Assembly: GCA_002917775.1 (NCBI GenBank)
Contig: KZ627146.1
Coordinates: 724,087-770,077, forward strand
Source of the DNA: Glaciozyma antarctica PI12
Taxonomy: Eukaryota > Basidiomycota > Microbotryomycetes > Kriegeriales > Camptobasidiaceae
DNA: 45,991 bases
Reading direction: 5' to 3'
Made by a program: the position numbers and the translations under genes. Shown one piece after another: positions 1,117-45,712 of the stretch. The notes beneath the pieces are model-generated. The model was not told the origin of the DNA and did not search any database. It was given only the letters and a program-made list of their open reading frames with translations. The first letter of the stretch is position 1; the number at the start of each line of letters is the position of its first letter.

Positions 1117-2938
1117 ATGCCTGTGTCCTCCAGCTCCTCCAACGCTGCGTCAGAGAAGACTCTCGAGCCGACTCCCACCCCCATTCAGTCCTCGCAGCGT
1201 GAGGTTTCTCCTCGCACCACCGATGGGCAGCCTCTGACCCACTTCGCAGCTCTGAAGCTCAAGCGCTTGAAGCTTGAAGGACCAGCTTCTAGCTCTCTGG
1301 ATCCTGCTTGCCATGGGAGTGGGAATCATTCTCGGCTACTTTGTCCCCAACACGGCCGTCGTCCTCGAGAAGGTCAAGTTCGTGGACGTCTCCCTTCCCC
1401 TCGGTACGTCCTGTCCCTATGCGGCACTCACACCCAAGCTCACCTCGCTCGCAGCCATCGCCCTTATTCTCATGATGTGGCCCATTCTTTGCCGCGTCTC
1501 GCCTACCTCTCTCGGACGCCTCTTCACTGGCCGCAAGATCTGGTACCATTTGGCGTTCTCGCTCTTTGTCAACTGGATCTTTGCGCCGCTGTTGATGGTG
1601 GGGCTATCCTGGGCGTTCCTTCCCGACAAGCAGGAGCTTCGCGAGGGTTTGATCCTCGTCGGCATCGCGAGGTGCATTGCGATGGTGAGTAGTTGTCGTG
1701 CGATCTGCGACGGATTGACGCTGATGCCTTGTCCACTAGGTGCTCGTCTGGACCGACATCGCTCAAGGAGACTCTGACTGTTCGTATCTCATCTTCTTAA
1801 ATTACCGAGCTCAGTACTGACGAACTTGCAACAACGCAGTCTGCGCCGTCCTCGTCGCCTTCAACTCCCTCCTCCAAATCGTCCTCTACGCGCCCTTTGG
1901 AATCCTCTACATCAACGTCATGGCCCCGGCTAGCGACCAAAACGACATCGTCATCTCGTACAGCACCGTTGCGAAGAGTGTCGCCGCCTTCCTCGGTTCG
2001 TCCCTTCGTTCGCATTCCCTCTGCAGGTGGTTCTGACTCTGCGCCTGCTTCTCAGGTATCCCCCTGGCGATGGCTTTGGTTACTCGCGGAGGTTTCTACC
2101 TCTTCAAGGCGCAGCACTTCTTCAACACCAAATTCCTCCCCTTCATCGGTCCTCTCTCCCTCATCTCCCTCCTCTTCACGACCCTCATCATCTTCGCCGC
2201 TCAGGGAAAACAGGTACGTTTGATCACCTTATCTCAGCCCGTGGCTTTGCTGAACGTTACGTCGCAGGTCGTCAACTCGATTACGGACGTCCTCCGAGTC
2301 ATCGCTCCCCTCATCGCCTACTTCACCCTCACGTTCTTCTCCGTTCTTCTGCTATGCAAGCACTACGGCGTCTCGTATCGTCTAACGACCGTTCAAGCGT
2401 AAGTTTTTTCGCTGCAGGAACTCTCGAGACCGAGGCTGACAAGCTTCCTCCCTCCTTTCTCCCAAAATCGTCCCTCCTCTGCCCTCCTCCCTCCTCCTGC
2501 ACTCTCCTTTCTCTCCCCCGCCACCTTTGCTCTTCATAGGTTCACCGCTTCCTCTAACAACTTCGAGGTACGTTACTTCACCGCATCCACGATCCGGCCT
2601 GAACGCTGACTCTCTCTATCTTTCAGCTCGCAATTGCTGTCGCCGTCGCATCATACGGTGCCGAGAGTCCTCAAGCTTTGGCAGCTACCGTCGGACCTCT
2701 CGTCGAGTACGTTTCTCGGCCAGGCTCTGTTCAACCAGCGCTGACACCCCTTCGCAGAGTTCCCGTTCTAATCAGTTTGGCGTACCTCCTCCTCTGGTAC
2801 CGCCGTCGGACAAACTGGGATATCGATACGCCCGCCGCGGTCGACGAGGGCAAGCCTATCACGGCGGAGACGGACGTGGAGAAGGTCGGAGGCGCCGAGC
2901 AGAGGAACGAGCAGGAGGTTGAGAAGGCAGTGGTGTAG
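1117..2938 (+). CDS. ACR3: Arsenite efflux permease, ACR3 family (9 exons, one apparent +1 frameshift)
   Basis: Predicted plasma-membrane permease of the BART superfamily that exports arsenite. Exons: 1117-1403, 1455-1684, 1740-1779, 1840-1995, 2056-2213, 2268-2398, 2540-2567, 2627-2706 and 2758-2938. Family signatures seen are LALWILLAMGVGIILGYFVPN in the first membrane segment (read as two adjoining pieces), MMWPILCRV with the conserved membrane cysteine, VLVWTDIAQGDSD, LVAFNSLLQIVLY and GPLVEVPVLISLAYL with its conserved glutamate. The exons total 1291 nt, one more than a multiple of three. The extra base lies near 1268-1273: the N-terminal part (HFAALKLKR) is in one frame and the first membrane helix in the next. 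Removing one A would give RLSLKDQLLALW, close to the usual family sequence, and about 429 residues. The intron at 2399-2539 (141 nt) is long for this window. Confidence 0.88.
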
Positions 2939-3320
2939 CTCGACTCTCCAGTGATTGTAGCCTACATAGATTAATTCGTTCAGTTCCAGGCATCGTCCCT
3001 GTCGTTCCATTTCGCGTCGTTCTGGTGTGCAAGCGAGACTGTTCACCGCGGAGGAGTCGCGGTCGACGAGGAGCTCACGCTTTCTTCGGCTGCCACCTCC
3101 GGGCTGTAGTCCAAGCAGAGCAAGCCCCGCATAAGCTGTTCGCTACTCAAAACCAGGAACAGACGTGAGCGAGAGAGAAGCGCTCTTCGCAGGCCAGCGC
3201 AGGCCCCCCGACGCCCAAGTCATTTCGCGGGAGGAGGTGCGTTGCCCTCTCCCTCCTCCCACTCCCTCACCTCTCTTGCGACCACAACCCAACCCCCACC
3301 AACCTTCCCTGCCTGCATCC
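2939..3320. other. Intergenic: ACR3 3' end and PRP16 5' leader
   Basis: These 382 bases separate two co-directional genes. The frame of PRP16 stays open upstream of its ATG at 3321 to about 3165, but no in-frame ATG is present there, so I treat the stretch as 5' leader. No other feature is seen. Confidence 0.5.
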
Positions 3321-8118
<4,798 letters not shown>

Positions 8119-8476
8119 GGTCTGTTTTCGATTATGTACAACTTTGAAGTCGTTCGCGCGAGTGGAGGTCGGCCAGCGAGAAGAGGAGCGAGCTGGCTGA
8201 GCCAAAGTTGAACTGGTGAAATATCGGAGTTTGAGTCTGTGAACCTCTCCAGCTTGAGCTTTAGGCTGGGAGGGTTGCTGCTGGCTGACTCTCACCTCCA
8301 AGAGGCTCCAACGAGAGCCGTTCGCCTGTAAACACTCTCCCTGTAGCTCCTTCTCTCCCCGGCCCAATCAACACCCCTCCGAACCTCGCTCGCCGAGTCA
8401 CTTCTCCCACCTCCCTCCCTCTCCGCCACTCCTCTCCCTTCTCCACCCCCGTCCACACCACCTGAACGCCACCACG
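8119..8476. other. Intergenic: PRP16 3' UTR and PRP22 promoter
   Basis: These 358 bases lie between co-directional genes. The last 130 bases are pyrimidine-rich, as is usual upstream of start codons in this window. I see nothing else. Confidence 0.5.
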
Positions 8477-11400
8477 ATGAGTAACGAGCTCGAGAAGCTC
8501 GAGGTCCTCTCCCTCGTCAACTCCATCACCCAAGAGCTCGTCAACCACACCGTGAGTCCCTCCTCTTCTCACCTCCCACCCCGCACGACACTAACGCACG
8601 AACGCAACAGGGACTAGCCGATTCTACTCTCGCTGAATTCCTCATCCACCTCCATGGCGAAGCGACCTCCCCCACCGACTTTAAAGCGAAATGCGCCCAA
8701 GTCGGCGCCGACTTTCCCGACTCGTTCCTCGCCTCTGTCGACAGGTTGATCCTGAGCATGCATCCCAAGTACAAGAAGAAGAAGGTCAAGGGGAAGAAGA
8801 GCAAGACGGCTGCGGGGAAAGCGGTGGAGGGGGAGGTGATGGATGAGGATAGGAAGAGGCAGATGCGCTTGTTTCCTGGGCTGGCGATGCCGGATAGCGA
8901 GTGGCAGCCGAGCTACAAGATGGATGACAAGGGGAAGAAGGAGAAGGTCCCTGGGATGGATCTGGGAGTGGACGACTTGATGGCGGAGCTCGAGGGAGTC
9001 AAGAAGCGCGTTGCGAATGGGGAGGTCGAGGAGGATGATCGGGATGCGAAGAGGAGGAGGGATGGGAGGAGCGCGTCGCCTGGGAGGAGGAGGGGGAGGA
9101 GTCCGGATTATCAGAGAGGGGGAGAGGGGAGGGATGGAGATCGGGGGAGGGACGCGGGGTATGGACGACCGGTGGGAGGGAGGGTCGGACCGAAGCGCGT
9201 AGACGACAAGCCCGTCATCTACAAGGTCTACCCTGGCAAGGTTGCGGGAATCAAGGACTTTGGAGCATTCGTCACGCTCGAGGGAGTCGCTGGTCGAGCA
9301 GAAGGTGCGTTCTCTCGTCCCCCCCTCTTCGTACGCGCACTAACGCCTTTCGTCGCGCAGGAATGGTCCACATCGGCTCAATCGGTACCGGTCGCATCTC
9401 CCATCCCTCCGACCTCCTCACGCGCGGCCAATCCGTCTTCGTCAAGGTCATGAGCACGGCGGGCGGTCGACTCTCGCTCTCGATGCGCGACGCGGACCAG
9501 AAGACCGGCGCGGACCTCACGCCTCATCTGCGCGTCAAATCGGAGGAGGAGATGCAGAATGCAAGTCGGCAAATGGCGGAGCGGGCAGCGAGTGGAAGCA
9601 ACGGCATCTCGCTTCGCAAGACGTTCGCGGACGACCACAAGACGAGCTCGGCGCGACGAATGACCTCTCCTGAGCGATGGGAGATCAAGCAGATGATCGC
9701 TTCGGGCGCCGCTTCTGCCGCCGACTACCCTGGACTCGACGAGGACTTTCTCTCCAACCCCGACGGGAACGGATTCGGGAGCTACAACGCCGGAGCCGAA
9801 GCGGACGAGGAACTCGACATCGAAATCAACGACGCCGAAGCTCCCTTCCTCGCCGGCCAGACGAAACGAGCCCTCGAACTCTCCCCCGTCAAGATCGTCA
9901 AAGCTCCCGACGGAGGACTCAACCGCGCTGCTCTCGCCGGAGCGTCGCTCGCCAAGGAGCGGAGGGAGCTCAAGGCGCAGGAAGCGGCTGAGCAGGCGGA
10001 TTCCGAGACGAGGGACCTCAATACGCCGTGGTTGGATCCGATGACGCAGAGTCATGAGCGGACGTTCGCGGCGGATGCGAGGGGAGTTGCGGCGGGGGAG
10101 AAGGCCAAGGACGTTCCTGCGTGGAAGAAGGAGACGTTTAATCAGGCGACGACGTTCGGCAAGATTACGAGCTTGAGCATTCAGGATCAGCGGAAGAGCT
10201 TGCCCATCTTCAAGTTTCGCGAGCAGCTTATCGAGGCGTTCAAGACGGTGCGTTCTTTCGTTTCGTGAGCTCGTCATTGGGAGCGAGGACTGATGCGCTC
10301 TTTGACTGCAGAACCAAGTCCTCGTCGTCGTTGGAGATACGGGATCGGGCAAGACGACGCAGATGACCCAGTACCTCGCCGAAGCCGGATTCGCCGACAA
10401 GCTCAAGATCGGCTGCACCCAACCTCGTCGAGTCGCCGCCATGTCAGTCGCGAAGCGCGTCGCCGAGGAGGTCGGTTGTCGACTAGGTCAGGATGTCGGC
10501 TACACGATTCGGTTCGAGGATTGTACGAGCCCCGAGACCAAGATCAAGTACATGACCGACGGCATGCTTCAGCGCGAGTGCTTGGTCGACCCCGATATGA
10601 CCCAGTACAGCGTCCTCATGCTCGACGAGGCGCACGAACGCACGATCGCGACCGACGTCCTGTTTGGATTGCTCAAGAGTGAGTTCTCGTCCTCCTTTCT
10701 CATGCGAAGAGGTACTGATGTTGCACCCTCGCAGAGTCTCTCAAGCGTCGCCCCGACCTCAAGCTCATCGTCACCTCCGCCACCCTCGACGCCGAGAAGT
10801 TCTCCGAGTATTTCTTCTCGTGCCCCATCTTCACCATCCCCGGACGAACGTACCCCGTCGAAGTCCTCTACACCAAGGAGCCCGAATCCGACTACCTCGA
10901 CGCCTCCCTCATCACCGTCATGCAGATCCACCTCTCCGAACCTCCAGGCGACATCCTCCTCTTCCTCACGGGACAAGAGGAGATCGACACGTCGTGCGAA
11001 ATCCTCTACGAGCGCATCGAAGTCCCTCGGCCCCAAAGTCCCTCGACCCCAACATTCCCTACCCATCTACTCCGCCCTCCCCTCCGAGATGCAGTCCAAG
11101 ATCTTCGACCCCGCACCCCCCGGAGCGCGCAAGGTCATCATCGCGACCAACATCGCCGAAACCTCGCTCACGATCGACGGAATCTACTACGTCGTCGACC
11201 CTGGATTCGTCAAGCAGAACGCCTACGACCCGCGATTGGGAATGGACTCGCTCATCGTCACGCCCATCTCGCAAGCTCAGGCGCGCCAACGGTCAGGACG
11301 AGCAGGGAGGACGGGACCGGGCAAGTGCTACCGCCTTTATACGGAGGCGGCGTACAGGAACGAGATGCTGCCGAACCCGATTCCCGATATCCAGCGGCAG

Positions 11401-12661: not shown

Positions 12662-12859
12662 GGCGGGGGGTTGCGTGGGAAGCTTGGGTGACTGCAAGTA
12701 TTGCTGTATTCCTCGAGCGGTTGACTGTGAGATGGATTCTTGCTTGAGAGCTGCACGCTGCGTTCTTCGTATCCACGTCGAGAGCGAGACGAGTTCGAAG
12801 GACGTCGGCGAGAGGGCCGAGGTATTCTTCAAGCTCTGCACGATCTGTCTCGCGTTTCT

Positions 12860-13329: not shown

Positions 13330-13423
13330 AGCAGTAACGCCTTGGACCAGTAACGCTGTCGTCCGAAGCAGATTGTTCGAAGCAGATACCGCGAGAACCA
13401 GAGCGAACCGGATCATTGCACGT

Positions 13424-14365
13424 TCAGAGCCGACCCTTGACCTCCTCGAGGTACTTCTTGAGCTCGCCCATATCAGCGGGCTTCGTGGGCCAGCCGATCA
13501 CAAGTCCTTCCTCGTCTGAGGCGCTAGGCTTGGGGATCACTGGAAGAAGGGAACGGGTCAGCGAGATGCACAGGTCTGAAGCGCGAAGGACGAACTGTGG
13601 AAGTGAATATGCTGCGTTGGGAAGGAAGTTAGCTTGTAGCCGCTGTGCTCAGCTGTGCTGGAGAGGAGGTACGTCGAGGTGCGAGATCCAGGTGCGCGAT
13701 CCTGCCGTTGTTCTAGGGAGGGAGAGAGGGAGTCCGTCAGCAAGGGGTCACCGAGTGGTGTCGTCTGGCTGCCAGCTGCATCGCTCCCACAAAGGGCTCT
13801 CCGCACTCACACCAGCAAGCTCTTCTCTCTCCGTATCCCTCCTCCAGCGTTGCTCCCCCACATCGCCTCGGCCCAGGCCGAACCCGTCGTAACCCGCCCA
13901 GCACAGACAAGCCGCTCACTCACCTGCAGGACGTTGTAGTCCACAGCTCCCACAGCCACCGCAAGCTTCTTCACAATAGGCAGCAGCTCGACGAGGTCCT
14001 CATCGGGGATGTCGTGGAGCTTGGCGCCGTGGTCTACGCGGCTCCGAATCAGCTTGCCACCTCGAACAGTTCACGGCGGGAGGACGCACACTTGGGGATA
14101 ACGAGAGCGTGCCCCTTGGAGATGGGTCCAATGTCAAAGAAGGCGAGCCTGTTGAGCGAGGCGAGCGCGTTGAGCGGAGAGCAAGTCGAGTTGCGGGGTG
14201 AGCTCACGTCTTGTCGGTCTCGATGAGCTTGAACGAAGGGATCTTGCCGCCTGGCGGTTCACTGTAATCAGAACTGTCTCCCTTCAGGTTCCCCAGCACT
14301 CGACACTCACTGACAATCTTGCAGAAGATGCAGTCCTCGTCGACCTTGTACGCGGGGGTCGTCAT
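13424..14365 (-). CDS. HNT1: HIT-family nucleotide hydrolase, Hnt1/HINT-like (7 exons, apparent 13-bp duplication)
   Basis: Histidine-triad protein of the HINT/Hnt1 branch, which hydrolyses adenosine 5'-monophosphoramidate and related nucleotides. Seen are CIFCKIV, SGKIPSFKLIETDKTLAFFD (in two exons), HALVIPKYHGAKLHDIPDED, NNGRIAH and the catalytic triad region HIHFHMIPKP. Exons: 14365-14311, 14250-14208, 14148-14090, 14033-13924, 13712-13673, 13611-13596 and 13539-13424. They total 439 nt, which is 13 more than the 426 expected for about 141 residues. A 13-nt direct repeat sits just before the HxHxH exon and throws the triad out of frame. The intron at 13923-13713 (211 nt) is the longest I reconstructed. 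Upstream of the ATG the frame stays open and encodes a mitochondrial-type presequence without an AUG. The gene shares a short promoter with the flavin monooxygenase. Confidence 0.88.
13677..13702. repeat. 13-bp near-perfect tandem duplication in the HIT gene
   Basis: AGGTGCGAGATCC at 13677-13689 is followed directly by AGGTGCGCGATCC at 13690-13702, with one mismatch in 13. It lies in the fifth exon of the HIT gene. Without one unit the exon is 27 nt and joins NNGRI(S/A)HLD in frame to HIHFHM. Confidence 0.8.
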
Positions 14366-16382: not shown

Positions 16383-16450
16383 ATAGGAGCGGGGAGAACG
16401 AAAGAGCGAGGTCGAGTGGTTTGCGAATGCGGTGTCCATATTAAGTATCA

Positions 16451-18377
16451 TCAATGAATCGCTCCTCTGCTCCAAGCTCTCCGTAGCCAGCTCTCCCGCT
16501 CAGGCACCACCAGTCCCCCATGATCTACGATCTCCCCCCACAGCGTGTCTAACAGATTCAGAATCACGATCGTCCTCTCGAAGTTAACCTGCGCCCTCAT
16601 CAGCCCCCTTCCTCGTCGCACGGCGATCTCACTCACCTGATAGCTGTAATGCGTCCCATCAAAGCTCACCGCCTGAACCTCAATCAGCTCCCCCCATCGC
16701 AAAAAAAAAAAGGAGAAAACGAGCTCACCCCCTCCGTCACATTATACCACTCCAAGCTCCTCCAAGCCCCTTCCCAAACCTCCCCCTCGCTTTCCTCCTC
16801 CAAAACCTCCTTCATCGCCTCATTATACTTCTTTACAATCTCAGGTCCCTGCGCTTCGAGCCACTCAACAGGCTTGTTAGGCCCCCGGAGCCATGTAGCC
16901 TGACCAGAGCGCGAGAGGACGGGGGATCGAGTGGTTCGTCCCTGTCATCCAAGGCTTGACGTGATATTTGCGCGTTTGTTCAGCGTCGAAATCTGCGAGC
17001 GAGTTAGCGATGGGGAGCGAGAGAGGTGGTGGGAGGACGCACGGTAGTGGATCCCGTGCGCGGAGATGTAGACGGGAGAATACTGCTGTCGCTCTGGAGG
17101 TAGTGAGGTAGTGAAGTTCGTGTAATCTCCCGCAGTCTTGTTCGAAGGCGTCCAGTCCCCCTCCGCCATCGTCTCGAACGCCCATCTGCGCCCACCCATC
17201 AGCACCTTCCTCGCGCAAGAAACGCAGGAACGCACGTCTGTTCGTACTTGACGTAAGGTATTGACTCGCAGACCATTTTAGGTAGGTCGGCGCTGTCGAA
17301 ATAGGAGAAGAAGCGGCAGAAAGGCCCGTTTGCGAAGGCGTTTTCGGAGAGGCATTCGGATTTGTGGTCCCAATGAACGTCGAGCGAGTCGGAGAGGAAG
17401 AAGAGGAAGGTTTGCGCGAGGTGGCGCATGAGGGAGTCGCCGCGGAGGAAGATCTGCGGGGAGCGAGGTGAGAGGAGCGAGAGAGAGGGGAAGGGAGGGG
17501 ACGTACGCCGCCGAAAGAGGAGATGAGATCGCAAGCTTCTGCGGGGGTGAAGATGTGAGGTGGTGGGCAGTCGGGTACTGCGAGATCATGGTCAGCGGAG
17601 GCAGGGGAGAGGTGGAGAGGAATGGACGCACGATCGTAGGAGAACTCGAAATCGCTGAGATCCAGCTCGGCGCTCAGCTCCTTCGCAAACTTGGTCCTAG
17701 ACGCCCCGTCCTCCCTGATCCTCGTCCTCTCCAAGCTCGCCAGCAACTGAGTCGAGTTGCACCCTCGTCCATGATACAACCCGCTCGTCCTCCTCGGCCC
17801 GACCCTCGTCGGCGGCGGTGGGATTCTTGGGGGAACGAGCGAGGCTGCTGAGAGGACGAAGAGGAGGGAGAGGAGAAGGAGGAGGATGATGAGGAGGGCG
17901 CGGCGTGAGAAGGTGTAGCGAGAGGGAGGGATGGGGGCCTGTTGCTCTCGGTCGTTAGCTCCCCCTTCCGCGCGCGAAGAGGAGCGCGCGTACCCGTAAT
18001 GAACGAAGCATCTCCTGCTCCTCCTCGTCCGTGCTGCTGCTCTCGTCGGAGGTCCAACGACTCTTCCCCTTCACCTCCCCTGGCGGGAAGGCATGGTCCT
18101 GGCGCACACGAGGTTAGCTCACCTTATCCCCCCGATCGGCAAGACAAGCAGGACTCACGCTTTCGCCCTCCTGCTCTGCGGCGCCCTCAGCCCTCAGCCC
18201 GACCAGCGCATACCTTCCCGCGTCACCTCCTCCTCCCGCACCTTTCTCATTGCTCCAAGTCGGCATGCTCTTCTTCTCCTCTGCGTGGTCCTCGGGCGGT
18301 AGTGGAGGCGAGACGATCGCTTTGACGTACGAATACGGCGCGGTGAAGAGAGGAGGAAGGTAAGCGCGCGTTCTCAT
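16451..18377 (-). CDS. SGNH/PC-esterase-like type II membrane protein (9 exons, apparent +1 frameshift)
   Basis: A cytosolic N-terminal region of about 110 residues (SDESSSTDEEEQEM) leads into one membrane helix (ALLIILLLLLSLLFVLSAA) and a luminal domain. That domain has the GDS block IFLRGDSLMRHL, a G-x-x-APG-x-NKP region and a late D-x-x-H (SFDGTHYSYQVN). GDSL plus DxxH is the catalytic layout of PC-esterase/SGNH acyl-esterases that modify polysaccharides in the secretory pathway; that role is inferred. Exons: 18377-18159, 18098-17994, 17938-17632, 17577-17507, 17453-17236, 17185-17043, 16992-16729, 16672-16637 and 16588-16451. They total 1501 nt, one over a multiple of three. The extra base is at about 16873-16882: LWSGYMAPGA is in one frame and NKPVEWLEAQGPEIV in the next. 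The corrected length would be about 499 residues. Confidence 0.65.
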
Positions 18378-23357: not shown

Positions 23358-25371
23358 ATGAGTATCGTCAGGCTCTTCCGCAGCTCTCATCCCTTGCGCC
23401 AGCTGCCAGCCAGCCGCACCACGTTCGCTCCTGTCTCGGGCTCGAGGGCCTTTGGCACGGGGATCGCTCTCCGCTTCACTGCATCAGGCAAGTCCGCCAC
23501 TCTCGTTATCGAGCTCACAGCTAACCAAACTGTGCCATCAAAGGAAGTATCGCTCAAGCCGCGCCCGCAAGGCGTCTCACTCGCAAGGTCGTCACTCCCG
23601 CCGAAGCCTCCTACCTCCACGCTCTCCGCCGTACGCTCGAGAGCTTCGAGTCCAAGTTCTGCTGCGGTGGAACTATCGATCTGGGTCCCGAGGCTCTGCG
23701 GTTGTTCTACCTCGATGCTGGAGGGAAGGCGAGGTGAGTCGCGGAGGGGAACTGGCTGTGAGCTTGGCTGACGCGGGCTATCGCTTCTCCAGGGTTATGG
23801 AGCTTCCGGGGACGTCTTCGGACCTTGGAGAGCTGCACGAGGCGGCTACTCCTTCGCCTCACGGCTACAAGGGCGATACAGTTCTCGATCCAAAGTACCG
23901 TCTTGCTCGCGAACTGAAGGTACCTCACTGTCTTTCTCTCCTTCCGAGCTCGCACTAACGATTCTTAATTCGCAGCTCGGTAGCTTCGCCACGACTTTCG
24001 ACCCCCTGCACCCGAAGAGCCAAGTCCTTCAAGGAATCTCCGCCCTCACCGCTGGCCCCAAGGTCTCTCGCTCAGGAGCTCTCGACGACGTCGTTCGAGC
24101 AGCTCACGAAGCTCTCGTTCTCCGCAACGCCGAATCACGCCGTATATACCCCTACGCCGCCGCACACTTCCCCGACCCGAAACCGCTCGCCACTCCTCCA
24201 GCACCCGAGCCAGCGAGCTCCGACATCCCTCTCGACCCTGCGACGTCGGGCAAGATCTACGCCGATCTTTACAAGCTCAACTCGTACTCGAAAGGCGGGT
24301 TCTTCAAGGCTCACCGCGACACTCCCAGGGGCAACAACCACCTCGGCACCATCGTCGTCGGCCTCCCCTCCTCCTACACCGGCGGCGAGCTCGTCGTTCG
24401 CCACGGCGGTACCTCGCAGACCTTTGTCTGGGCCTCTTCCGCCACGAACGGGATCGTCAACTGGGCTTTCCTCTACTCGGACTGCGAGCACGAGATCCTC
24501 CCCATCACCTCCGGCACCCGTAACTCCCTCTCCTACGACGTCTTCGCCTCCCCCACTCCCACCCCCTCGGCAGTGCTCGAAAGCACTTCCTTCCCCTTCC
24601 ATTCGCACCTCGCCAATCTCTTGCGACGAGATGACTTCCTCCCCGAGGGAGGGAAGGTGGCCTTCGCGCTCGAGCATGCGTACCCCCTTCCTACGGCGGT
24701 CGAACAGTCGGCGAGCGGGAGGAACGAGGATTTCGTCCAGTCGTTGCCAGGTCGGCTTAAGGGATTCGACGCGGTCCTTTACGCCGTCGGTCGCTCGCTA
24801 TGCCTCGCTCCTCAGCTCAAGGCGATGTACAGCGTCGAAGCTGCCTCGTTGGCAGACGCTCGATCGTCGTACCAACTGGGCGACGATGACATCGAAGGCC
24901 TCGACGAGGACGCGAAGGAGGATCTCTTCTACCAAGGGGTGGTGGAGGAGTACGGGTCGATTGCGGGGGACGAACATCTTTCTCAGGACGCCTTTTCAGC
25001 TTGAGCCGGTCCGGGACTCAACCCCAGCTACTCGAAGGAGTTCTACCTCACCGGAGACGTCTTCACGGGAGGCGGGGATCCCGATGGCGAAGGACGGGAC
25101 GATATGCAGCTCTTGACGGAGGATGCGGGCGCACAGCTCGAAGGCGACTTGATCTGGGCGCATCGAGCGGCGGCGAGCGTTGGTGATGCGGGAAGTCCTT
25201 GGAGCCAGGCTTCTTCGTACGAAGCGTACGGGAACGAGGTGCGTTTTTTCTTGCTGTTTGCGTCGCTCCTTCGCGAAGGCAACGAGTCGGTGGACTTACG
25301 GAGCTGTTGCACTCGTGCTTCACGTTCCAGCGTTCGTTCAGCGGTTTTCGAGCCACGGTATTGACGAATGA
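23358..25371 (+). CDS. 2-oxoglutarate/Fe(II)-dependent oxygenase with mitochondrial-type N-terminus (5 exons, in-frame TGA)
   Basis: Non-heme iron dioxygenase of the prolyl-hydroxylase-like superfamily; the substrate is unknown. The iron ligands H-x-D are in FFKAHRDTPRGNNHLG, the distal histidine in YSDCEHEIL and the 2OG-binding arginine in GTRNSLSYDVF. GGELVVRHGG is the usual beta-turn between them. The N-terminus (VRLFRSSHPLRQLPASRTTF) is basic and serine-rich, like a mitochondrial presequence. Exons: 23358-23487, 23544-23733, 23793-23919, 23976-25238 and 25279-25371. They total 1803 nt, exactly 601 codons. One codon, 25002-25004, is TGA, and the frame continues with NPSYSKEFYLTGDVFTGG and AYGNE. 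A C-to-T change in a CGA arginine codon is the simplest origin. The first intron is GC-AG. The last 34 coding bases overlap the SET gene on the other strand. Confidence 0.78.
23488..23543 (+). other. GC-AG intron
   Basis: The first intron of the oxygenase gene starts GCAAGT and ends AAAG, with the branch site CTAAC. Splicing here joins FTASG in frame to SIAQAAPARRLTRKVV. Every other intron I placed starts with GT, apart from the damaged CIN1 donor. Confidence 0.75.
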
Positions 25372-27442: not shown

Positions 27443-30325
27443 TCACAGCATGAGCGAGTTGGACTGGATCTGAGGCCTGCGCGCGACGAAAACGGATCAG
27501 CATGGCTCAGCACAACCACCGAGCGAAAAGGAACGCACGGTCCAATGTCGAACTGCCCGTTCGGTCCCCTGACCACATTCACACGCCTATGCTCCCTCAT
27601 CTCCCCATGCCCCGTACTCCCACTCCTCTCCACCCCCGCACTCCCCCCACTAAACCTCCACCAGCTACTCCTCCTATCGCTCCCAACATCGACGCTCGTC
27701 GACCTCGCATGACTCCCCGACTCCCTCTGCGAGTCCCTCGAGTCTCCCGATAATCCCGTACTCCTACTCGACGCACTCGAAGCCGACGACGTCGAATCCC
27801 TAAGCTGCAGTCGCCCGCCCTGCGAGAGGGAGAACGCGCGGTGCTGAGGGTCGATACGCTCCCCCTTTCGGCCAGAGGGGAGGCTGAGAGCTCCCCGCTT
27901 CGTGGCGCGGAAAGCGGCGTAGCCTGCTAGGGCGAGGACGATAACTCCAAAGGTGACGACGACGGCGATGATGATCGTCTTGCTCTTCTTGCCGCTGTCG
28001 GAGCTCGTCGTAGACGTGCTGGAGGTCTCGCTGTTCTGAGTCGCGAGAACGGTAGACGTGTAGGCCTTGACGTCGAACGTGGGGTTGATGGCGTTGGCGA
28101 TCTGAGCTTGGATCCCCGATTGGTTGTAGAGCGGGCTGTTCGCAGCGCTGATCATCGCCTGGAGGGCGTCGACGTACTGCGTCGGGATGTGACCGAGCCA
28201 GAGGGTGAGAATCTGGCTCGCGTCTCCATCGAACGTCGCGGGCTCGTACGCCGCGAGCGAGAGCGTCTGGATCTCGGCCGAATCGATCTTGAGTGCGGTG
28301 GCGAGGACGATGTAGAAGAGTAGAAGAGGATCTGGCCCGACGCGTCCGAGTTCTGGACCATCCAAGGCCACGGGAGGGAGCTGTCGAAGAGGATGGAGAT
28401 GAGGGTCGTATCCTCGTCGGCGGTCGCGGCGGTGCTCTGGGACGAGGAAGTGGCGGGGACGATCTTGCTGGGGAGCTCGGTGGGGAACGCGTGCTGAGAG
28501 GTGATGGTGATGGAGGCGACTCCGTCGATCGTCGTCGTTTGCGCGCCGGCGACGAGTGCGGTCGTCGTCGCGACTCCCGTCTCGGAAGACGTGGCCGAGT
28601 TGACGAGGAGCGCGGACGTAGGAACCCAGTTGTATTGGCTGCAGAACATGGGTCAGTTCAAACTTCTCCTTGACGCGAGAAGAAAGATAGGGCGCACGTG
28701 TCGCTCTCAGACCTGGTAGCACTGCTGCTGCTCGACTCGCTGCTCTCCGACGACGTCGACGACGACTCGGGCGCACTCGTGATTTCCGTCACGCTGGATT
28801 CTCCATCGCTGGTGAAGAGGGTAGGTTCCGCCGTGACCGTCGCCGAGGGCTGTTCAGTACTCGACGAGGACTGGGCGACCGAGGTAGCGTCCGCCGTCGA
28901 CGATCCCGTCTCTACAGCGGTTCCCGCGGACGTGCTCGACGATCCGTCGACGACCGTTCCGTTCGACGTGCTCGAAGCGACGCCAGAGCCTGACGACTCG
29001 TCGGCCATGCTTGAGGGCCCCGCCGTCACCGTCGCGTCGACCGAGGATCCCGTCGGGGACGACGACAAGTCGGACGTGACTCCCTCGACGCCGCTCGTCA
29101 AGCTGCCGATGATGCTTCCGCTGCTCGAGGGTTCGGCGGTCGAGTTCGCAGCGTCGGTAGCGGTGGGCTGGCCCAAAGTCGCGTTGCCGGTGGTCGTAGG
29201 GCCGGGAAGGATGGACGGGAGCCCTCCGAAGAGGGAGGTGATCTGTCCCGCGATTCCGTTGATCCCGCTCGCCACGCTCGAGGTCTCGGCAGGCGACTCC
29301 AACGTCGTCGTCGCGGCCTCGCTGCTCGCGTCCGAAACCGACTCCGTGGCCGACGGGGCGAGGGTAGGCGTGGGGAGGAGAGTCGTGACGTCGCTCGTCT
29401 CGGTGAAGATTCCGCGAGACGTTGTGATGGTCTCAGACGCGTTCGCCGGCACCGTGGGTAGCGCGATCTCGCTTGAGGTGGTCTCGATGACGGTGGTAGA
29501 AGCGTCCACGCTCTCTGTTGCGGTCGAGTTGGCGGGGATGACGGCGTCGGTAGGAGTGGGGAGGAGCCCGCTGACCATCGACACGATTCCGCCAAAGAGG
29601 CCGCTCGACGACGCGGGTTCGGTGCTCGACGACGCGGGTTCGGTGCTCGACGACGCGTCTGCCACGGTGGTTTCGGCGGCGGAGGTCGAATTAGTGGTGG
29701 GGGAGGCGGCATCGACGGAGGGGGAGTCGGTGGAGGAGGGTGACGCGACGGAGCGGGTGGTCGCAGCGTCGGTCAAAGAGTAGGCGACTGAGTCGGTGGA
29801 AGATGCCTTGGGGTTGAGAGCGGTGGGAAGGTCCGTCAAAGCGTCGCTGGTACGAGTGGCTGCTCCTGCGACTCCCCTCCTCGTCGCGGTGGAGGTAACG
29901 TTGGTCGTTTCGTTGGCGGGCAGGGTGGTCGAGATGGCGGGGCCTACGGCTTCCGTCGCGTTCGCGGCGATAGTTCCATTGACGGTCCCGTTCGTAGTAC
30001 CGTTGGCGGTGGCTGCAGAGCAACGTAGTCAGCTCTGTCCCCTCCTCAAATCGAAGGACCGTGGTGAAACAAGAAAGGAGCCCAACGTACCCAAGATCTC
30101 GTCGCGCGTGCTGCCCGCTTGTCGCTTCCCAAATCCCCTAGCCCTCTTCTTGCCCGCGTCTCCTACGCTGTTGACGACCTGAGGCCTCCCTGCCAACCCG
30201 ATACGGTAACCCCGGAACGCGGTCACATCAAACTCGCGGTCCTCTTGAGCGGCGGCGCCAGAGGCGAGGGCGGAGGAGGAGGCGAGCGCGAGGAGGATGA
30301 AGGCGGTGGTGGAGGGGAAGTACAT
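27443..30325 (-). CDS. MSB2: Msb2-like signalling mucin (4 exons, 8-bp out-of-frame duplication)
   Basis: Cell-surface sensor of the Msb2 type, feeding Cdc42/MAPK pathways in fungi. In order: signal peptide (MYFPSTTAFILLALASSSALA), a KR-rich stretch that could be a Kex2 site (GFGKRQ), NGT/NAT N-glycosylation sites, about 430 residues of Ser/Thr/Pro/Ala mucin, the extracellular conserved domain (ISILFDSSLPWPWMVQ, LSLAAYEP, LGHIPTQYVDALQAMIS), one membrane helix (TIIIAVVVTFGVIVLALAGYAAF) and a basic cytoplasmic tail ending PPQIQSNSLML. Exons: 30325-30091, 30012-28698, 28638-27539 and 27476-27443. They total 2684 nt; subtracting an 8-bp tandem duplication at 28313-28328 leaves 2676 nt, exactly 891 residues plus stop. 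As written, the frame is lost inside the conserved domain, before the membrane helix. Confidence 0.85.
28313..28328. repeat. 8-bp perfect tandem duplication in MSB2
   Basis: TAGAAGAG occurs twice in a row (28313-28320 and 28321-28328). Without one copy GQILFY joins IVLATALKID in frame on the minus strand. Confidence 0.85.
29603..29657. repeat. 21-bp coding tandem repeat in the mucin domain
   Basis: Two identical 21-bp units start at 29603 and 29624, followed by a 13-bp partial third. They encode the repeated peptide SSSTEPA on the minus strand. The unit length keeps frame, so copy-number change would only alter the length of the mucin stalk. Confidence 0.85.
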
Positions 30326-32663: not shown

Positions 32664-35244
32664 ATGCCTTCCAAGATTGCAGAGGTCCTGCGTTGTGAGT
32701 TGCGAGACTCGCTTCCTCACGCCCGCCCGACGTTCGCCTGCTGATCTTCTTCGCACCTCGCAGCGTTCTCTTCCGCCGAAAAGAGGAACATGTGCGTCCC
32801 TCACCTACCAAGAAGCACAGCGCGAGCTCGATACTGATGCCGCCCTGTCGTTTGCAGCGCATGGTACAGCGCCGGTATCGTGACTTGTGAGTCAACTGCG
32901 CGATCTGACCCGAAAAAGACTTGCGCTCACCCCCATTTGTCCCTGCAGACAAGTTTGGAATCGAGTTCTTCAACGTAACCAGCAGCCGCCTCCTCGCGAT
33001 GCTCAAAGCTAACGTCGTTCCGCGCAGGGATCCATCTCAACCCTCGCTGCCGATCGCTTCAAGGTACGTCCGAGATTTACCGCGAGACGGTGCCGCTCTT
33101 GCTCACGAACTTTCCTTCCAGGCTTCGAATGCTTTCACCAAGCTGGGTGCTGCTCAAGGAATCAACCTCGCCGCGCAGTGCGTCGGCGCCATCTTGAGTG
33201 CGTCGCCTTCTCTCCCCTTCAGTTGATCTCGCTAACGAGACCTTGCAGTCGCTCCTCTCATCAAAAGGTGGCCGACTCGCACCGTCCTCTCTGCTGCCAT
33301 CATCGGCTTCGCTTTCATCACCACCAGTGCGTCTTTCTAGCCAGCCTTCGCTCAAGCCTTTCTAACGCCCGCTTTCTCCCGCAGTCCTCCTCATCGTTGA
33401 CGCTGCGACGGGCGGAAAGATGAAGGGCCCTGGCGACACGAAGCCTAACTACGGTGACTGGAACCCCAACGCGATCTTCGTCATCTGGACGCTGTCTGGT
33501 GCGTTCGCTCTCCTCCTCTACCTAAAGCGACGCAGAATCTCACTCTTCGCTGCAGGTATCTTCTTCGGAATGGTCGAGCTCATTCGCCGTGTTATGTACG
33601 TCTGTTCCTGCTTTGTTGCGCGTGCGAAGCTGACCCTCTTCCACCTCAAAGCCCTGCGGACGTCGTCGGCTGCAACGTCTCGAAGCTCCGTCGCATGGAC
33701 GCCACCGTTCACATCTTCAACGGTTCGTTACCTGACTCTCCACCTTCCGAGTTTCACTGACATCTCCGTCGAAAGAGCTCGCAGGAACTGCCGGTGCCTT
33801 CGCTTCCTCGTCGGCCATCTCGCGTTTCGGCAACAACTACTCGTTCTTTTTGACTCCCGTCTTCTTCGTTGCTTCCGCCGTACGTCTTCGCCGCAGACCT
33901 CTTCGAGATCTTACTGACTCGAGACTTACACAGTTCCTTTGGACTCGCATCGGCGTCCTCTCGTTCAAGGCTCCTGGAGACGCTGTCGAGGGCGAAGACG
34001 CCGCCGACGCCGCCGCTCGCCAGACTCGCTCCAAGAACTACCTTGCTCAGATTGGTCACGGCGCACTCCTTTTCGTCAAGTCGATTTACACTGGCGCAGT
34101 AGTGGTCATGAGCCACCGCAAGTTCATCTGGCTCTTCCCTGGATAGTGCGTTCTCTTCCTTCCTTCTTCGCCGCACATTGTGCTGACGATCATCGCTCGC
34201 AGCTCGATTGCTCTCTACCTTCATCGGTAAATTCCTCACTCACATCTTCGGAGACGGCTTCTCATGAGGTCCACAGCTTCGTCGAGAGCGCCGTTATCGG
34301 TGCCTACGCAAAGCGAGTTCTCGGCGTCTCGGCCTGGAGCCAACTTATCAACGGTACGTTCTTCTTTACGCTCCGTAGTTCTTTGCTGAACTTGAACGAC
34401 AACAGGTGGATCCAACTTTGGAGAGGTGCGTTTGCTTTACCGATTTTTCATGACGCTCGCTGACACTCTCGAACAGATGCTCGGAGCCGTCGCCGTCTTG
34501 ATTCTCTCCGACTACGTCCAGACTCCTCTGCCTTGGCTTCGTCTCGACGCGGTCATGGTGCGTCGCTGCTTCCGTACCTCCCTCCCTCGCAAGACTAACT
34601 CGCTCCGCAGCTGAACCTCGTCTGGGTCATCCCTGCTTTCGCGCGAATGGCCGTCGCTGGCGATGTCTCGTGGGCATGGCGTCTCGCAGGCTGCATGATT
34701 CCCATCTCCTTCGGTTGGTCCGCCGGCGACGTCTCTCTCGCCGCGTACATCCAGTCTTCCTTCTCCAGCACCGAGCTGGGTACGTCCCTTTTTCGCGCAG
34801 CTCCTTCGCACGCTGATCCCGTCGCTGCAGCTTCGACGCACAAGGACATCTCCCTCCTCGGAGCCGTCTTCGCTTTCCTCCTCAGCTCAACGATCGTTAT
34901 CAACGCCATCAACTCCGTCCTGTCCTGGGAAAAGTTATAGACCGCGATTTCGTCAAGAACGGCAACATCTTCGCTGCTCTCTCCCAAGTCGGCGGGTGCG
35001 TCTCCTTACTCTTCTTTCTGCGACGCTCGCTGATCTCGTGAATCGTAGGATCCAATTCTCGGTCGGCTTCGTCATCGTCTTCCTTTCTACCTTTATCCCC
35101 CGAGGCGCGTTCGCATGGAACCCCAAGGTCCTTCCTGGGATGTACGTCGACGACGGTACCGCTGCGAGTGATGAGGCGTCGGAGGGCTCCGAGGATGGAG
35201 AGGAGAAGATCAGGGAGGAGGAGAGCGAGAAGGCAACGGTTTGA
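32664..35244 (+). CDS. MFS-type multi-pass membrane transporter (19 exons, 5-bp out-of-frame duplication)
   Basis: Polytopic membrane protein with the two-halves pattern of the major facilitator superfamily; substrate unknown. Conserved stretches include AEKRNIAWYSAGIVTYKFG, FNGSISTLAADRF, ELIRRVIPADVVG, SHRKFIWLFPGYSIALYLHR, RVLGVSAWSQLINGGSNFGE, a long hydrophobic series around WRLAGCMIPISFGWSAGDVS, and an acidic cytoplasmic tail. It has 19 exons, several under 30 nt: 32664-32694, 32764-32791, 32858-32886, 32950-32975, 33028-33063, 33122-33197, 33249-33326, 33385-33498, 33556-33595, 33652-33722, 33776-33879, 33934-34145, 34203-34226, 34277-34353, 34406-34425, 34477-34557, 34611-34779, 34831-34995 and 35049-35244. 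They total 1577 nt; without the TCCTG duplication at 34918-34927 it is 1572 nt, 523 residues. The duplication separates INSVL from GKVIDRDFVKNGNIF. Confidence 0.72.
34918..34927. repeat. 5-bp perfect tandem duplication in the MFS gene
   Basis: TCCTG occurs twice in a row. With both copies the frame runs into a TAG within 20 bases; with one copy it continues to the normal end at 35244. Confidence 0.8.
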
Positions 35245-35975: not shown

Positions 35976-37410
35976 ATGACCTACACACCACGGGAGACCT
36001 GCGAGCTGCTGCTGAAGAACGGAATGCAGCGCCACGCCGGCGGCTGGCCACTCGCCCTTGCAAAGGTGGGTTTCTCACTGAGATCGGTCTAGGGAAGCTG
36101 CTTCTACCGAGACTTCTTCCGCGTTTGTGGAAGATCGAGTAGGAGCGAGCGCCCGAGGGCTCTTCCTCTGTCGAACGACCGAGCTAATGTGCGATATCGG
36201 GCAGGCGTTTATGGGAGGAATCATGATTTCTCTCGGTGGTTTGTTCAGTCTCGTGATTGGCGGTGGTCTCACCGAGCTGGGCATCTTGAATCCTGGTACG
36301 TTCGGCTTGCGAAGGTGCAAGGAATGCACGCTGACTCTCGCGTCGCAGGGATTGGAAGGTTTCTCTCATCAATTGTTTTTCCAATGGGCCTCATCATGAT
36401 TACGCTTCAAGGATCCGACCTGGTAAGCTCTCCATCGTGCTGAACCGTCTCGACTGCACTGACTGGCTCTGCGAACAGGTAACCTCGATCATGGCCGTCT
36501 GTGCGTTCCTTCCTCCCTCCTGATGGGTTTATCAGCTGACACCACAGTTTCAGCCGTCATGACTGTTCTACGACGCAAGGCACCGTGGTGGGACGTACCC
36601 ATGGAGCCTCTTTATCAGTACATGCGGTAACTTCATGGGGAGCCTCTTCGCCGCCGGGTTCTTCGCATATTACTCTGGGATCGTCTCGCAACCTCCCTAC
36701 AGTACCTGTGAGTCGTTGAGGAGCTCCTTCAGAAGTTTTTACTGAGCTCTGATTCGCAGACGTGATCGCGTACGCGGATTCAAAGGTCCGTGATCTCGCT
36801 CGCCTTGCGAACACCCCGACTAATGCCCCCGCTTTCGCAGGTTCTCACTCCTTCATGGGGCGAAATCTTTGCTCGTGGCGTAGGCTGCAACTTCCTCGTC
36901 TGCATCGGCGTGTACCAGGCCTACATGGCGACCGAGGTCGTTAGCAAGATCATCGCAATCCACCTCCCAATCTTCACTTTCGTGGCGTACGTTCCTCTCT
37001 CGCTTCTTCTTCTTTGCCCAGCTGATCCAGTCTCAAAAGTCTCTCGTATGACCACGTCGCTGCAAACATGTTCTCCATTCCTCTGGCCATGATGCTCGGT
37101 AGCGACCTTTCTGTTGGGTATTATCTCTGGAAATCGGTGAGTCCTGTTCCTGCCCTCACTCCCTGCCTTCCTTGACGTTTTTTTGTCCAGTTTATCCCGT
37201 CGTTCATTGGCAACTGCGTGGGAGGAATCTTGCTTGCCCTTCCCCTCGTGTGTACGTCTCTTCTGACCGTCGCAACGTCGTCCACCGATCCTGATCCGTT
37301 TTCGCGCAGACTTCCACCTTATGGATCACAACAAAGGACCGTCAATTGAGCAATCGGAAGCATCTTCGACACAGACAAGTCTCGAGGACGGGAAGGTCAG
37401 CGTCGTGTAG
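35976..37410 (+). CDS. Formate/nitrite transporter, FNT family (10 exons, apparent +1 frameshift)
   Basis: Six-helix channel-like transporter for formate, nitrite or related monovalent anions, expected in the plasma membrane. Seen are AFMGGIMISLGGLFSLVIGGG, FPMGLIMITLQGSDLVTS with the central helix-break motif, ISTCGNFMGSLFAAGFFAYYSG, FVALSYDHVAANMFSIPLAM with the pore histidine region, and FIGNCVGGILLALPLVYF. Exons: 35976-36065, 36205-36295, 36349-36422, 36479-36500, 36548-36707, 36760-36785, 36841-36986, 37040-37136, 37191-37251 and 37310-37410. They total 868 nt, one over a multiple of three. The extra base is at about 36601: KAPWWDVP is in one frame and WSLFISTCGNF in the next. The corrected length would be about 288 residues. 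The first intron (139 nt) is long for this window. Confidence 0.85.
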
Positions 37411-38033: not shown

Positions 38034-39204
38034 ATGGCACCCCGCACCGTGTCCGCATACTATCGCGAAGCCGCGTTGGCTGCCGAAGAAGGCTACAGCC
38101 CCGAAACAGCGTACGTGGAGCGCATGGAGGACGCATACGAGCAACAGCCAGACGTCGACCGAGCCATCTACCCGCATTCCACCCTCGCTGCCGACCCTTC
38201 GCACCACTCGAAGAACCCCTCCCATCCTCCATCCCACCTCGCGTACGGCCAACCCCTCTCCTCGTCCTCCCCGATGCTCCGCCCCTCTCCCCGCCCCGCA
38301 CCACTCGAGATGATTGATCTCACCGCTGCGAACGCGCCGCGCGTCTTCGCCCTGCCTCCGATCTCGCCTCATCGCTTCGAGCCTTACCGCGAACCTGCCT
38401 CGCCCGTCTACCCCGACTACGCGACGGGGGAACGAGATCATCAGGAGAAACTTCAGCCGATCAACTCGCACTCGACGTCGCTGTTCGATTGGGGAAATGT
38501 GGATGGTGCGATAGGGGAGAAGGGGACGAGCAGGTGGTGGAAGAGCAGGAGGGGAATAGTGGGGTTGTGCCTCCTTGTTGCCCTCGCCGTGCTAGCGGTG
38601 GGGCTGGGGACGGGACTTGCGAAGAGGGAGAAGGGCGTGGAGGAGGCTAAAATTGAGGGAGCCGCGGACGGCGCGTCGACTGCGTCTTCGAGCACGAGCG
38701 GTTTGGACGCGACGACTGCCAGTTCAGCCGTCAGCGATATCGCCGAGACGCTGTCTTCGCTGCTGGAAACAAGCGCGACGGCGGAAGGGGAAGCGTGGAT
38801 GACGAGCAGGTCTATCTCGTTCGGCAGCGAGCCCACGTCGACGCCCTACGTCGAGCCCTCTTCTTCTCGCGCAGAGGACAACTCTCCCGCCTACACGCCT
38901 CCCAGCTCTTCCTACACTCCCCCGTGGAGCACACCCCCACACCCCCCCACGCTCCTCCACCTCTTCCTCGCGACAAGCGGCGCCAACTCCCTCCAGCTCC
39001 TCCACGACTTCCCCTCCTCCTCCCACCTCCTCACCCGACCCCACTCCCACCTCCTCTCCTCCTGCGGAACCTACCTCGTCGGCCGAATCGGTCGAAGAAT
39101 CTTCCTTTGCTGAAGAAACCTCGTCCTCCCAAGATCAAGACGGGCTCCTGAACTTGCGAGGGCTTTCAACTGCGACGTCGGGGAATGTGACGTCCCACGC
39201 GTGA
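38034..39204 (+). CDS. Orphan single-pass membrane protein with Ser/Thr-rich tail (1 exon, apparent +1 frameshift)
   Basis: I do not recognise a family. The first 180 residues are polar and proline-rich with several tyrosines (SAYYREAALAAEEGYS). A basic stretch (SRWWKSRRG) and one membrane helix (IVGLCLLVALAVLAVGLGTGL) follow, then a Ser/Thr-rich segment (STASSSTSGLDATTASSAVS). Basic residues before the helix put the N-terminus in the cytosol, so the Ser/Thr part is outside. The frame of 38034 runs into an atypical Leu/His-rich end at 39113. The +1 frame from about 38950 instead gives a Ser/Pro/Glu-rich tail (AEPTSSAESVEESSFAEETS) ending in TGA at 39202-39204. A one-base excess in the C-runs at 38932-38948 is the likely cause; 1171 nt is one over a multiple of three. 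The layout is like a small wall sensor or signalling mucin. Confidence 0.55.
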
Positions 39205-39482
39205 TTCTCAAGGTGCGTTTGGCGCTCTTCTTCGACGGGTGCTGAGCTGACGAAACGTTAGCAGCGACTTCAAGAGCTGGTCCGCTCCGAGCGAGCAGCT
39301 TGGTCGAGGCAGTCCGGCCGACGGGGGGACGTAGTCGTAGAAAGCGTGTTGTGGGCAAAGGTGTACAAGCTGTATTACGAATATAAGTGGGTATCGGAAC
39401 AGAAGGGGGTATCCAAAAGGAGAGCTGGGGAAGCAAAGTGCTAAGCGCGCGCCCCGAGAGTATGAGCGAAAACCGACCTACT

Positions 39483-42400
39483 TCACGACCTCGACGCGCG
39501 CCTCTTCTCGAGAGCGTCTAAACAAACTCGTCGCGCTGCTTCGATCTCCTTCGTCCAAGTGGCGCATTGGCGGAGCGTCGGAGCTCGAACGTTGATCGTC
39601 TCCCCTCGGTGAGCGACCTGGAACGAGGATTCGTCGCTACGATGATCGCGGATGGCACACTCTTCGAGAGGAATCGGCTGCGACGCAAGCTGTGTCAGCA
39701 CACACGCAAAGACGCGGGAGAGGACTCTTCGGCAACTCACCCAGCGATAAACGATCTCGGAACCAGACTTCGTTTCGGTGAAGAGCAGCAGGTCGTTGAA
39801 CAGGTAGGCTTGTAGCTTGCGACCGCTCTTGAGCTTCGAGAGCTGACCTTCCTTGAGGATCTTGCGCGGGCCAAGAAGGCGCGTCGGCGCGCTAAGCTCA
39901 AGCCGCTGCGAACAACAGGCCTCATCAGCGAGCGACAAAGACGCAGGCAGAGAGAGGACGTACAGCGTCCACGCCTGGGACAGTAAGATTGTCCGACAAT
40001 GCCGCGAGCTTCTCCGCGTCCTCCTGAGATCGCACGGCCTCGTTGACGACGCCGAGGATGGCCTCCGCGATGCGAAGGGACTTGGTGAGGCTTTCGTAAT
40101 CTGGGTGGTCGGGCTCCGTGTAGCGAAGGATCTGCGGTGGGCGCTTCGTTAGAAGATGATAAAGAGAGAGTAGCAGCTACGCCCCTGGTGAATGAGCAAC
40201 GGGTAGCGAGTGAGCCGCTGCATGGGCTCCAGCAGGAAGTGCTCGATGGCGAGGTTCTTGGCGCGTAGGCCCTGTCACGAACGCCGTCAACATCCAGGCG
40301 AAATCGAAGCGAAAAAAGACGCACGTCCAAGAGCGTGCGGAGATTGGGATCTGAAGCCTTGAGGTCTGCGAGAGTTTGTGCGGCGTTCGACTGATTGAGG
40401 CAGTAGCCTCGGTAGACGTCCAATCCTCGCATGTGGGTCCGAATCACATCTCCAATAGCGTCCACGTACAAGCGAGAGACCCGCTGGCGTTCTTCGAGCT
40501 CGCTCAGGAAGATCTGCGGACGTGGCGTGAGCGCGGAGCGAGAAGGAGAGGTCGAATGCGCACGGTGTTGAACATGAGGATGTCCTCGACGTTGGCGAAG
40601 ATGATGCTCGACGCCTTGGGCGCCAGAACTGGCTGCAAAGCCGTGAAGAAGACCTGCAGAACGAAGAACTTCAGCTCGACTAATGGAGGAATGACTGCAT
40701 CAGCGCACCTCGATGATAAGCTGCAAGCTCTGAACGTAGGTAGCCTCTGCGAGACCCGACAACACAATCAGCAGATGCCTGACACCAAAGTCGACCTAAC
40801 GTACCCGTCGCGATGAACTCGAAAATGCTCTCCTGACGCTTGCGTTCGCGATTAGGAACGTTCTCCAGCGCGCTCTCGTCGATCAAGCTGGCCCACGTCT
40901 GTGAAACAAACATCAGCACACACCCAGCGCCAAGAAACTACGGACGTACAGCTCCCACCGGAGCAACCGTGCTCGCCCTGCGTTCCCCGGTCGAGCTCGT
41001 CGGAGTGCTGATCATCGGCGCGCTGACGACCGGCCTCGCTCGCTCCCCAACTGCACTGCTCGTGGTGCGAGAAACGCCGGCGACGACGCGGGAGATGAAA
41101 CTGCTCGCCACCGAAAGGCGAGCGTCGGATTTGTGAATGGACGCTGCAGTCGACGGCGAGGGCGAGGGAGGAGGAGAGAAGTCGGGCATGGGCGAGTAGC
41201 GAGGGAAGGAGGTGGAGTCGACTGAATCACGATGAGGAAGAGGAGGTAGATCTCGCATCGCTTGTTGATAAAGCTGTGAACGAGCAATCAGTCTCAGCAT
41301 CGAAGCGAACGAGCGACAAACTCACATCGTAAGCATCCTCCATCCGCTCCTCTTGCTGCTCCTCGGTGACGACCTCCTCGACCTCTTCCGGCATCGATGG
41401 CGTATCAGGAAGCGCCGTCCTAGGAGGTCGCGAAGGTGCAGCTCGTCTCGTCGCCCTCCTCTTGACCGGCGACGCTGCCGACTCCCTCACGAGAAGACCC
41501 GCCGCCTCGAGCACGCGAAGACGTTCCACCTCCCGCTCCTTCGGGCTCCTGGTGTCGGGCTCTGCATCGCTGTCGTCGTCGCTACTCGAGTCTGAGTCGT
41601 CCGCGATCGGAGAAGGTGGTTCGATGAGGATGGGAGCAGGTGCGGCGATTAGCGAAGGCGGCGTCGGAGCTGCGATGGTGACTGGCGTTGCGAGCGACGG
41701 CGGCGGCGAGATTGAAGAAGTTGTCGGCTCGAGACCTGGAAGACGGCAGCGCGAAGGTTGATCGATAAAGTGGGGGAACGTTCAATTGCGGGAGGGACAG
41801 AAAGGGGAGGGACAAAAGTGGAGATAGTCTCAGTACGGGAGTGGTAACGAGGAGGTAGAAAGAGGGAGAGGGGACGCAGCGGGTATTAAAGAACGTTTAC
41901 TGACGCAGTTCGAAGTACGCCGCAGGGACCAGTCCGATGATGCCTCCCTTCTCCGCCTTCCACCAGCTCTCGTCCGAGGTGTCCACGATCGAGAGAGTGT
42001 CGTCCTCCTCGAATGAGAATTCGTCGCCAGACGTCGCGGTGTAAGCGTAGAGGGCGGTGGCGACGACTTGAGCTGCGAGCGGAGAACGGCGTCAGCAAAC
42101 GCAGCATCAAACGAAACGAACGAACACGCACCATTGATCTCCTCAATGTACGACTTGGGAATCCATCCAGCCTTGCCGGTGCTCTCGATCTTGCCGTACC
42201 ACCAAGGACTATCGGCGTCCATAGGAGGGTTGGCGGCGATGACCACGTTCTCGCCAAAGCTGAGGTCCTCGGAGCGTTGACCCTCGTACGCGTAGAGCGA
42301 GCGCATTCGAACAGCTGCAACCGTACTTCAGCTAAAGCCCATCCCTCCGGAAAGAAAACGACGCACTCGTTCTAAGATCCACAGCATCCATCGGATCCTC

Positions 42401-45400: not shown

Positions 45401-45712
45401 CCAGTCGGCTGACCCTGGAGAGGGAGCTGCGGCCGAAGCCCTCCTCCGCCATAACCTGTCGGCTGAGGTTGCTGTAGACCGAGTCAGCCGTGCTCCCAAA
45501 ACCCTCTCCTTCCACTTTAGCTTACCTGGAACTGAGGCTGAGGCTGGAACCCAGTGTGTTGACCCTGTTATCGCCTGAGTGAGCTGATGACGAGGTCGTG
45601 GGGTGAGCTGAGTACTCACCTGGAGCGGCTGCTGGTACCCCGTCTGCTGCTGGTTGAGATAAGGCTGCTGCTGTGGTTGACCACCCTGGTAAGGTTGGTT
45701 GAGCCACGACAT
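39483..45712 (-). CDS. CIN1: Intersectin-like EH/SH3/SH3/DH-PH scaffold and Rho GEF, Cin1-like (17 exons, broken splice donor)
   Basis: Endocytic scaffold and Rho-family exchange factor with the domain order of Cryptococcus Cin1 and animal intersectin. A Gln/Pro-rich N-terminus precedes an EH domain ([20 protein letters not shown] ... [18 protein letters not shown]), a long charged coiled coil (about residues 300-720), a proline-rich region with WH2-like and AREPSP repeats, SH3 no. 1 ([20 protein letters not shown] ... WWYGKI), SH3 no. 2 ([20 protein letters not shown] ... SWWKAEKGG), a DH domain ([20 protein letters not shown] ... [17 protein letters not shown]) and a PH domain ([20 protein letters not shown]). 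The 17 exons total 5241 nt, exactly 1746 residues plus stop. The intron after LLIHQ lacks a GT donor: CAG is followed by GGGCGTAG where GTGCGTAG is expected (40183). The intron at 41904-41736 (169 nt) uses donor GTCAGT. Confidence 0.9.
42438..42512. repeat. 24-27-bp coding repeats in the CIN1 proline-rich region
   Basis: GGCTCCCTCGCAGG begins three consecutive units at 42438 (27 bp), 42465 (24 bp) and 42489 (24 bp). On the minus strand they encode PAREPSP-type repeats, likely SH3 ligands. All unit lengths keep frame. Confidence 0.8.

Follow-up and report, generated by a model that had tools for sequence, protein, structure and literature searches.

We conclude, with a probability of about 0.84, that the breaks in the genes of this DNA are consensus errors of the draft assembly. 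The breaks exist in the deposited sequence, recur across the genome as calls, and affect PRP16, PRP22, PRP43 and SSE1. Their absence from the DNA of the cell, and the sequencing or assembly step that made them, are what we infer. Most likely, the genes would be intact in the sequenced DNA, and local mistakes would have stayed in the consensus: extra bases, some of them in single-base runs, small spurious duplications and a few scrambled stretches of tens of bases. Those mistakes that shift the frame would become visible every few kb of coding sequence.

The window, that is, the whole stretch of DNA analysed, spans 46 kb (C1:724087-770077) of a basidiomycete-like yeast genome of 19.98 Mb in 18 contigs. 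Long runs of N flank it, directly behind and, at a distance of 86 bases, ahead up to base 724000 (L006 1247-10000, L005 78-7666, L010 5308-10000). These runs may be gaps or withheld sequence; single Ns scattered at the L006 edge give them an appearance more of masking than of a gap. A tRNA scan and an Rfam scan of the window were both without match, and a plasmid search returned none either. Introns are dense and short (median 56 nt, n=715, from the window and 20 other loci), the usual pattern running from GT[GA]CGT to CAG. Breaks were called by a gene finder composed of a three-periodic codon model, splice-site matrices and a costed frameshift state, self-trained on the window together with 20 loci of 10 kb from elsewhere in the genome. 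Two of these 20, consisting mostly of N, were excluded from the rate counts, which thus used 18. Each claimed site was moreover inspected in a three-frame display, and PRP16, PRP22 and HIT were additionally aligned to solved relatives, with an X placed at the break.

An earlier note on this DNA had claimed eleven anomalies, and ten of them are present in the deposited sequence when it is displayed in three frames. The spliceosomal DEAH helicases PRP16 and PRP22 are related to each other, and their genes are neighbours in head-to-tail order at 3321-12529 on the plus strand. In PRP16, a perfect 8-bp inverted repeat with a 1-nt spacer stands where relatives have QED (6268..6284, plus strand): the 8 nt after MTG, together with the 8 nt ahead of them, make up a perfect palindrome, and IEVTC then follows in another frame, leaving a net frame change. 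The two relatives printed in the alignment read MTGQEDIE and MPGQEDIE at this place. In PRP22 (11018..11060, plus strand), CEILYERI is read in one frame and KSLGPKVP in the next, with RPQHS where the three relatives printed in the alignment have ELII; an imperfect 16-nt repeat can be seen there by eye. The gene for the HIT protein (13673..13702, minus strand) has the residues between AH and HIHFH swapped for a longer sequence: the best relative, with AHQVVDHVHFH, has four residues from AH to HxHFH, and here 19 nt take their place, again with an imperfect repeat, of 13 nt, noticed by eye. For these three genes the frames and the alignment to solved relatives agree in supporting the claimed anomaly.

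Short tandem duplications mark the frame change in three further genes, as read in the frames: 7 bp, before the first membrane helix, in an ACR3-like transporter (Pfam SBF; 1265..1279, plus strand), 8 bp in what we take to be an MSB2-like mucin gene (28312..28328, minus strand), and 5 bp in an MFS-type transporter (34917..34927, plus strand) whose match to Pfam MFS_1, at 21.3 bits, is under the curated cut-off of 33.4. The MSB2-like gene also holds a 21-bp tandem repeat in frame at 29603-29657; in-frame tandem repeats are common in mucin domains. One base too many is read in the frames of two genes. In the PC-esterase-like gene (16877..16885, minus strand) it brings a stop right after APGA; the name is that of the earlier note, the pieces searched having given no Pfam match. 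In FNT (Pfam formate/nitrite transporter; 36595..36604, plus strand) the extra base falls between WWDVP and GNFMGS. The frame of an orphan membrane protein changes where the sequence is rich in C and contains an 8-bp tandem repeat (38930..38960, plus strand), as judged from the amino-acid make-up of the frames only. The dead splice donor claimed for a gene with a RhoGEF domain, presumably CIN1-like, is there too: an exon encoding part of that domain (23 residues) precedes a GG at the intron start, where GT is expected (40183..40184, minus strand). In the same gene, a predicted intron of 169 nt with a GTCAGT donor (41736-41904) could hide a further anomaly.

The eleventh claim, a 2OG oxygenase disabled by an in-frame TGA (25002), was not confirmed. 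This TGA probably lies in an intron, and 24950..25027 (plus strand) is best read as a 78-nt GT-AG intron that bridges it. The coding log-odds of the segment are negative (-2.9). With a stop cost of 4 nats or more the gene finder retains the intron, and with a cost of 2 it drops it. Its splice sites are only fair (donor 2.5, acceptor 0.2), so that we regard this reading as a lean and not as proof. Five genes had been called clean. Aurora and heme lyase do read cleanly, as does FMO when spliced at the acceptor near 14879; the ZNF511-like gene is ambiguous, and SET has one weak called event at 25555, near its 3' end, which is included in the window's five called events.

By called rates, the breaks are not confined to the window, and the window is not clearly different from other loci. 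With the frameshift cost set to 10, the coding sequence of the window (29.3 kb) yields 5 called events, that of the other loci (110.2 kb) 18, and simulated clean genes (276.3 kb) likewise 18. This amounts to 0.171, 0.163 (18 other 10-kb loci) and 0.065 events per kb, so that the false-call rate of the gene finder is not small. The corresponding counts are 6 in 29.3 kb, 26 in 111.5 kb and 39 in 279.4 kb at cost 8, 4 in 29.2 kb, 8 in 109.5 kb and 9 in 274.7 kb at cost 12, and 1 in 29.1 kb, 5 in 109.3 kb and 5 in 273.6 kb at cost 14. Across these costs, called events outside the window exceed the simulation by about 1.7-fold to 2.6-fold. The gene finder found only 4 of the 10 window sites confirmed by eye. 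Of the 17 frame shifts called at the other 10-kb loci, 13 belong to the +1 class, and 5 fall in runs of at least 4 equal bases. Such a +1 bias, together with single-base runs, would fit consensus indels; among the 5 shifts called in the window, 4 are of the opposite, -1 class. A search of the genome for 5S rRNA copies, meant as an error gauge, gave no match among the best 47 of 1248 candidates, which were scored.

Homology to solved structures confirms breaks outside the window in genes that are well conserved; the remaining called sites elsewhere are calls of the gene finder. PRP43 (C4) changes frame between NLTP and GDIMSAF, and SSE1/Hsp110 (C9) does so at a run of six C. The HSP70-family listing has 27 matches at seven places, and of these places only that of SSE1 has a gap smaller than an intron. 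In addition, a kinesin motor on C8 is broken near its end, and 3 of 8 other DEAH helicase loci (L025, L039, L040) carry a called event. The matches listed for MCM genes, 14 at six places, show no gap too short for an intron. Six genes of the CCT family, from a list of ten places, showed no frame break in the roughly 9.4 kb of their coding sequence that was covered; three were checked from DNA and three from predicted proteins. Like the MCM matches, they look cleaner than the window. Tallied by hand, conserved genes elsewhere have about 4 breaks in about 40 kb, against 10 in the 29 kb of the window, and the evidence leans towards the window being the worse of the two, in a loose comparison of sets that were chosen differently. 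Draft-assembly error, which the earlier note had ranked first, is the best supported explanation: similar breaks are called assembly-wide and equally often, and breaks are also present in PRP43 and SSE1/Hsp110.

The identity of the affected genes points the same way. PRP16, PRP22 and PRP43 are required for splicing and are essential. This bears out the remark that genes with essential relatives are hit, PRP16 and PRP22 in the window and PRP43 elsewhere. Introns abound in this genome. If the strain is haploid, having all three broken should be lethal, and therefore consensus error is the best reading. Haploidy is on record for published relatives only: in the available part of one report, two Rhodotorula mucilaginosa genomes, each of some 20 Mb, are called haploid (PMC6476726). 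By its GC content, size, introns and gene structure, the present genome may be that of a red yeast of the Rhodotorula group.

Some features would not be expected of plain random error, namely the spread of one break per gene, the tandem repeats and the six CCT genes without a break. The earlier note had spoken of exactly one change per gene. The spread is indeed improbable by chance: if sites are placed at random by coding length, all of them fall in different genes with a probability of 0.0068 for 10 sites and 0.0021 for 11 (gene lengths were entered by hand). The rule may not hold elsewhere: one gene in each of L013, L014 and L021 has at least two called events, some of which are perhaps false calls. 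Because our approach cannot register more than one net shift in a gene and is blind to in-frame changes, the even spread is partly a matter of ascertainment.

At five of the ten window sites an exact tandem repeat of 5-8 bp is found no more than 6 nt away, which is true of 3% of gene positions (P about 7e-6, in a test that was not blind, some repeats having been noticed beforehand). Among the five, the repeat of PRP16 is a 5-bp repeat within the palindrome, and that of the orphan gene lies in low-complexity sequence. The palindrome is one of two in the window with arms of at least 8 and a spacer of at most 3. Repeats at half of the sites and a palindrome are not expected of plain base-calling error. 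Together with the even spread, they are the reason why we leave a small share of probability to real templated mutations or break-repair scars. Exact tandem 8-mers overall number 10 in the window and 17 in the 200 kb taken from elsewhere, of which about 21 kb is N. This is a mild excess, and exact tandem 7-mers show none.

The changes could be real DNA, left by error-prone repair that struck in a burst, through template switching or through end joining with copied insertions, the cell being kept viable by gene copies absent from the assembly. We consider this unlikely. Besides the tandem repeats and the palindrome, it would account for the imperfect repeats in HIT and PRP22, and exonic tandem 8-mers, 6 in the 29.3 kb of the window and 7 in 110.2 kb elsewhere, fit it as well. 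However, exonic tandem repeats with units of at least 7 bp not divisible by three are, as a whole, evenly distributed (10 in 29.3 kb and 32 in 110.2 kb), the called shifts outside the window are mostly +1, and such a cell would have PRP16, PRP22 and PRP43 all broken, with no second copy found for the parts of PRP16 and PRP22 searched. In a narrower version, which we hold to be quite unlikely, copied-insertion repair would have flared up recently and put roughly one short templated scar into each gene, the strain surviving through unassembled intact copies or some other compensation. Excision footprints of transposons, which the 7- and 8-bp duplications had brought to mind, were considered as well, and rejected. 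hAT-like transposons leave 8-bp duplications. The duplications here are of 5, 7 and 8 bp, accompanied by changes of other types, and do not have one fixed length; nor does the window, all exonic duplications being counted, have more of them than other loci do.

It is very unlikely, in our judgement, that the window represents a haplotype or homeologue in decay, with a second copy still intact, a possibility raised by the earlier note. Decay of this kind would affect essential and dispensable genes alike, as is seen here. Nevertheless, an intact second copy did not turn up for any of the parts searched. Among the best candidates scored, a part of PRP22 and a part of MSB2, searched as DNA against the genome, matched only themselves, PRP16 DNA matched other helicase loci at 68-75% (and one at 94% over 35 bases), and the protein of the PRP22 helicase core had its next match, at 73%, on C13. 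Moreover, a decaying haplotype would not explain why similar breaks are called outside the window.

We give as little credit to the idea that the shifts come from faulty gene models and are in fact introns or natural sequence. It probably holds for the 2OG stop, and the CCT genes show how such a mistake comes about: CCT3, CCT4 and CCT5 looked broken until the DNA showed introns, one of them with a GC donor, and the breaks were rejected. That intron, in the CCT3-like gene of L041 (about 231), starts with GCGCGT and is otherwise normal; the same gene has two extra residues at another exon joint. Against wrong models as a general explanation, PRP16, PRP22, HIT, PRP43 and SSE1 break in conserved stretches where no intron fits. 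Programmed frameshifting, or a correction at the RNA level that restores the proteins, has the hairpin-like palindrome of PRP16 and nothing else in its favour, and we give it next to no credence, since the 25 break contexts (24 of them distinct) have no slippery motif or stop context in common by eye, as the earlier note had held, and since conserved residues of PRP16 and HIT are replaced and not merely shifted, so that skipping bases would not restore them.

Consensus error therefore remains our reading, and most likely the breaks are an ordinary property of this assembly and not biology. Gene loss and pseudogenes inferred from this assembly would be unreliable, and any reading of its sequence alone will meet many broken genes. 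Were the changes real, a single cell would carry three broken spliceosomal helicases, and a new explanation would be needed.

Similar situations have been described in other genomes. According to the available part of a report on long-read assemblies, errors in them can fragment genes (PMC12007338). The likeness lies in frameshifts and early stops in conserved genes, with a bias to insertions outside the window. The difference is that the window sites go beyond one-base errors, several consisting of a short tandem duplication, a palindrome or tens of scrambled bases, and the present assembly may not be a long-read one. Collapsed haplotypes, in the part available of another report (PMC8445201), likewise produce apparent frameshifts in a reference. 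Our case resembles them in that the frameshifts of a reference would be only apparent, and may differ from them in ploidy, to judge from the two related genomes described as haploid in the same partly available source (PMC6476726).
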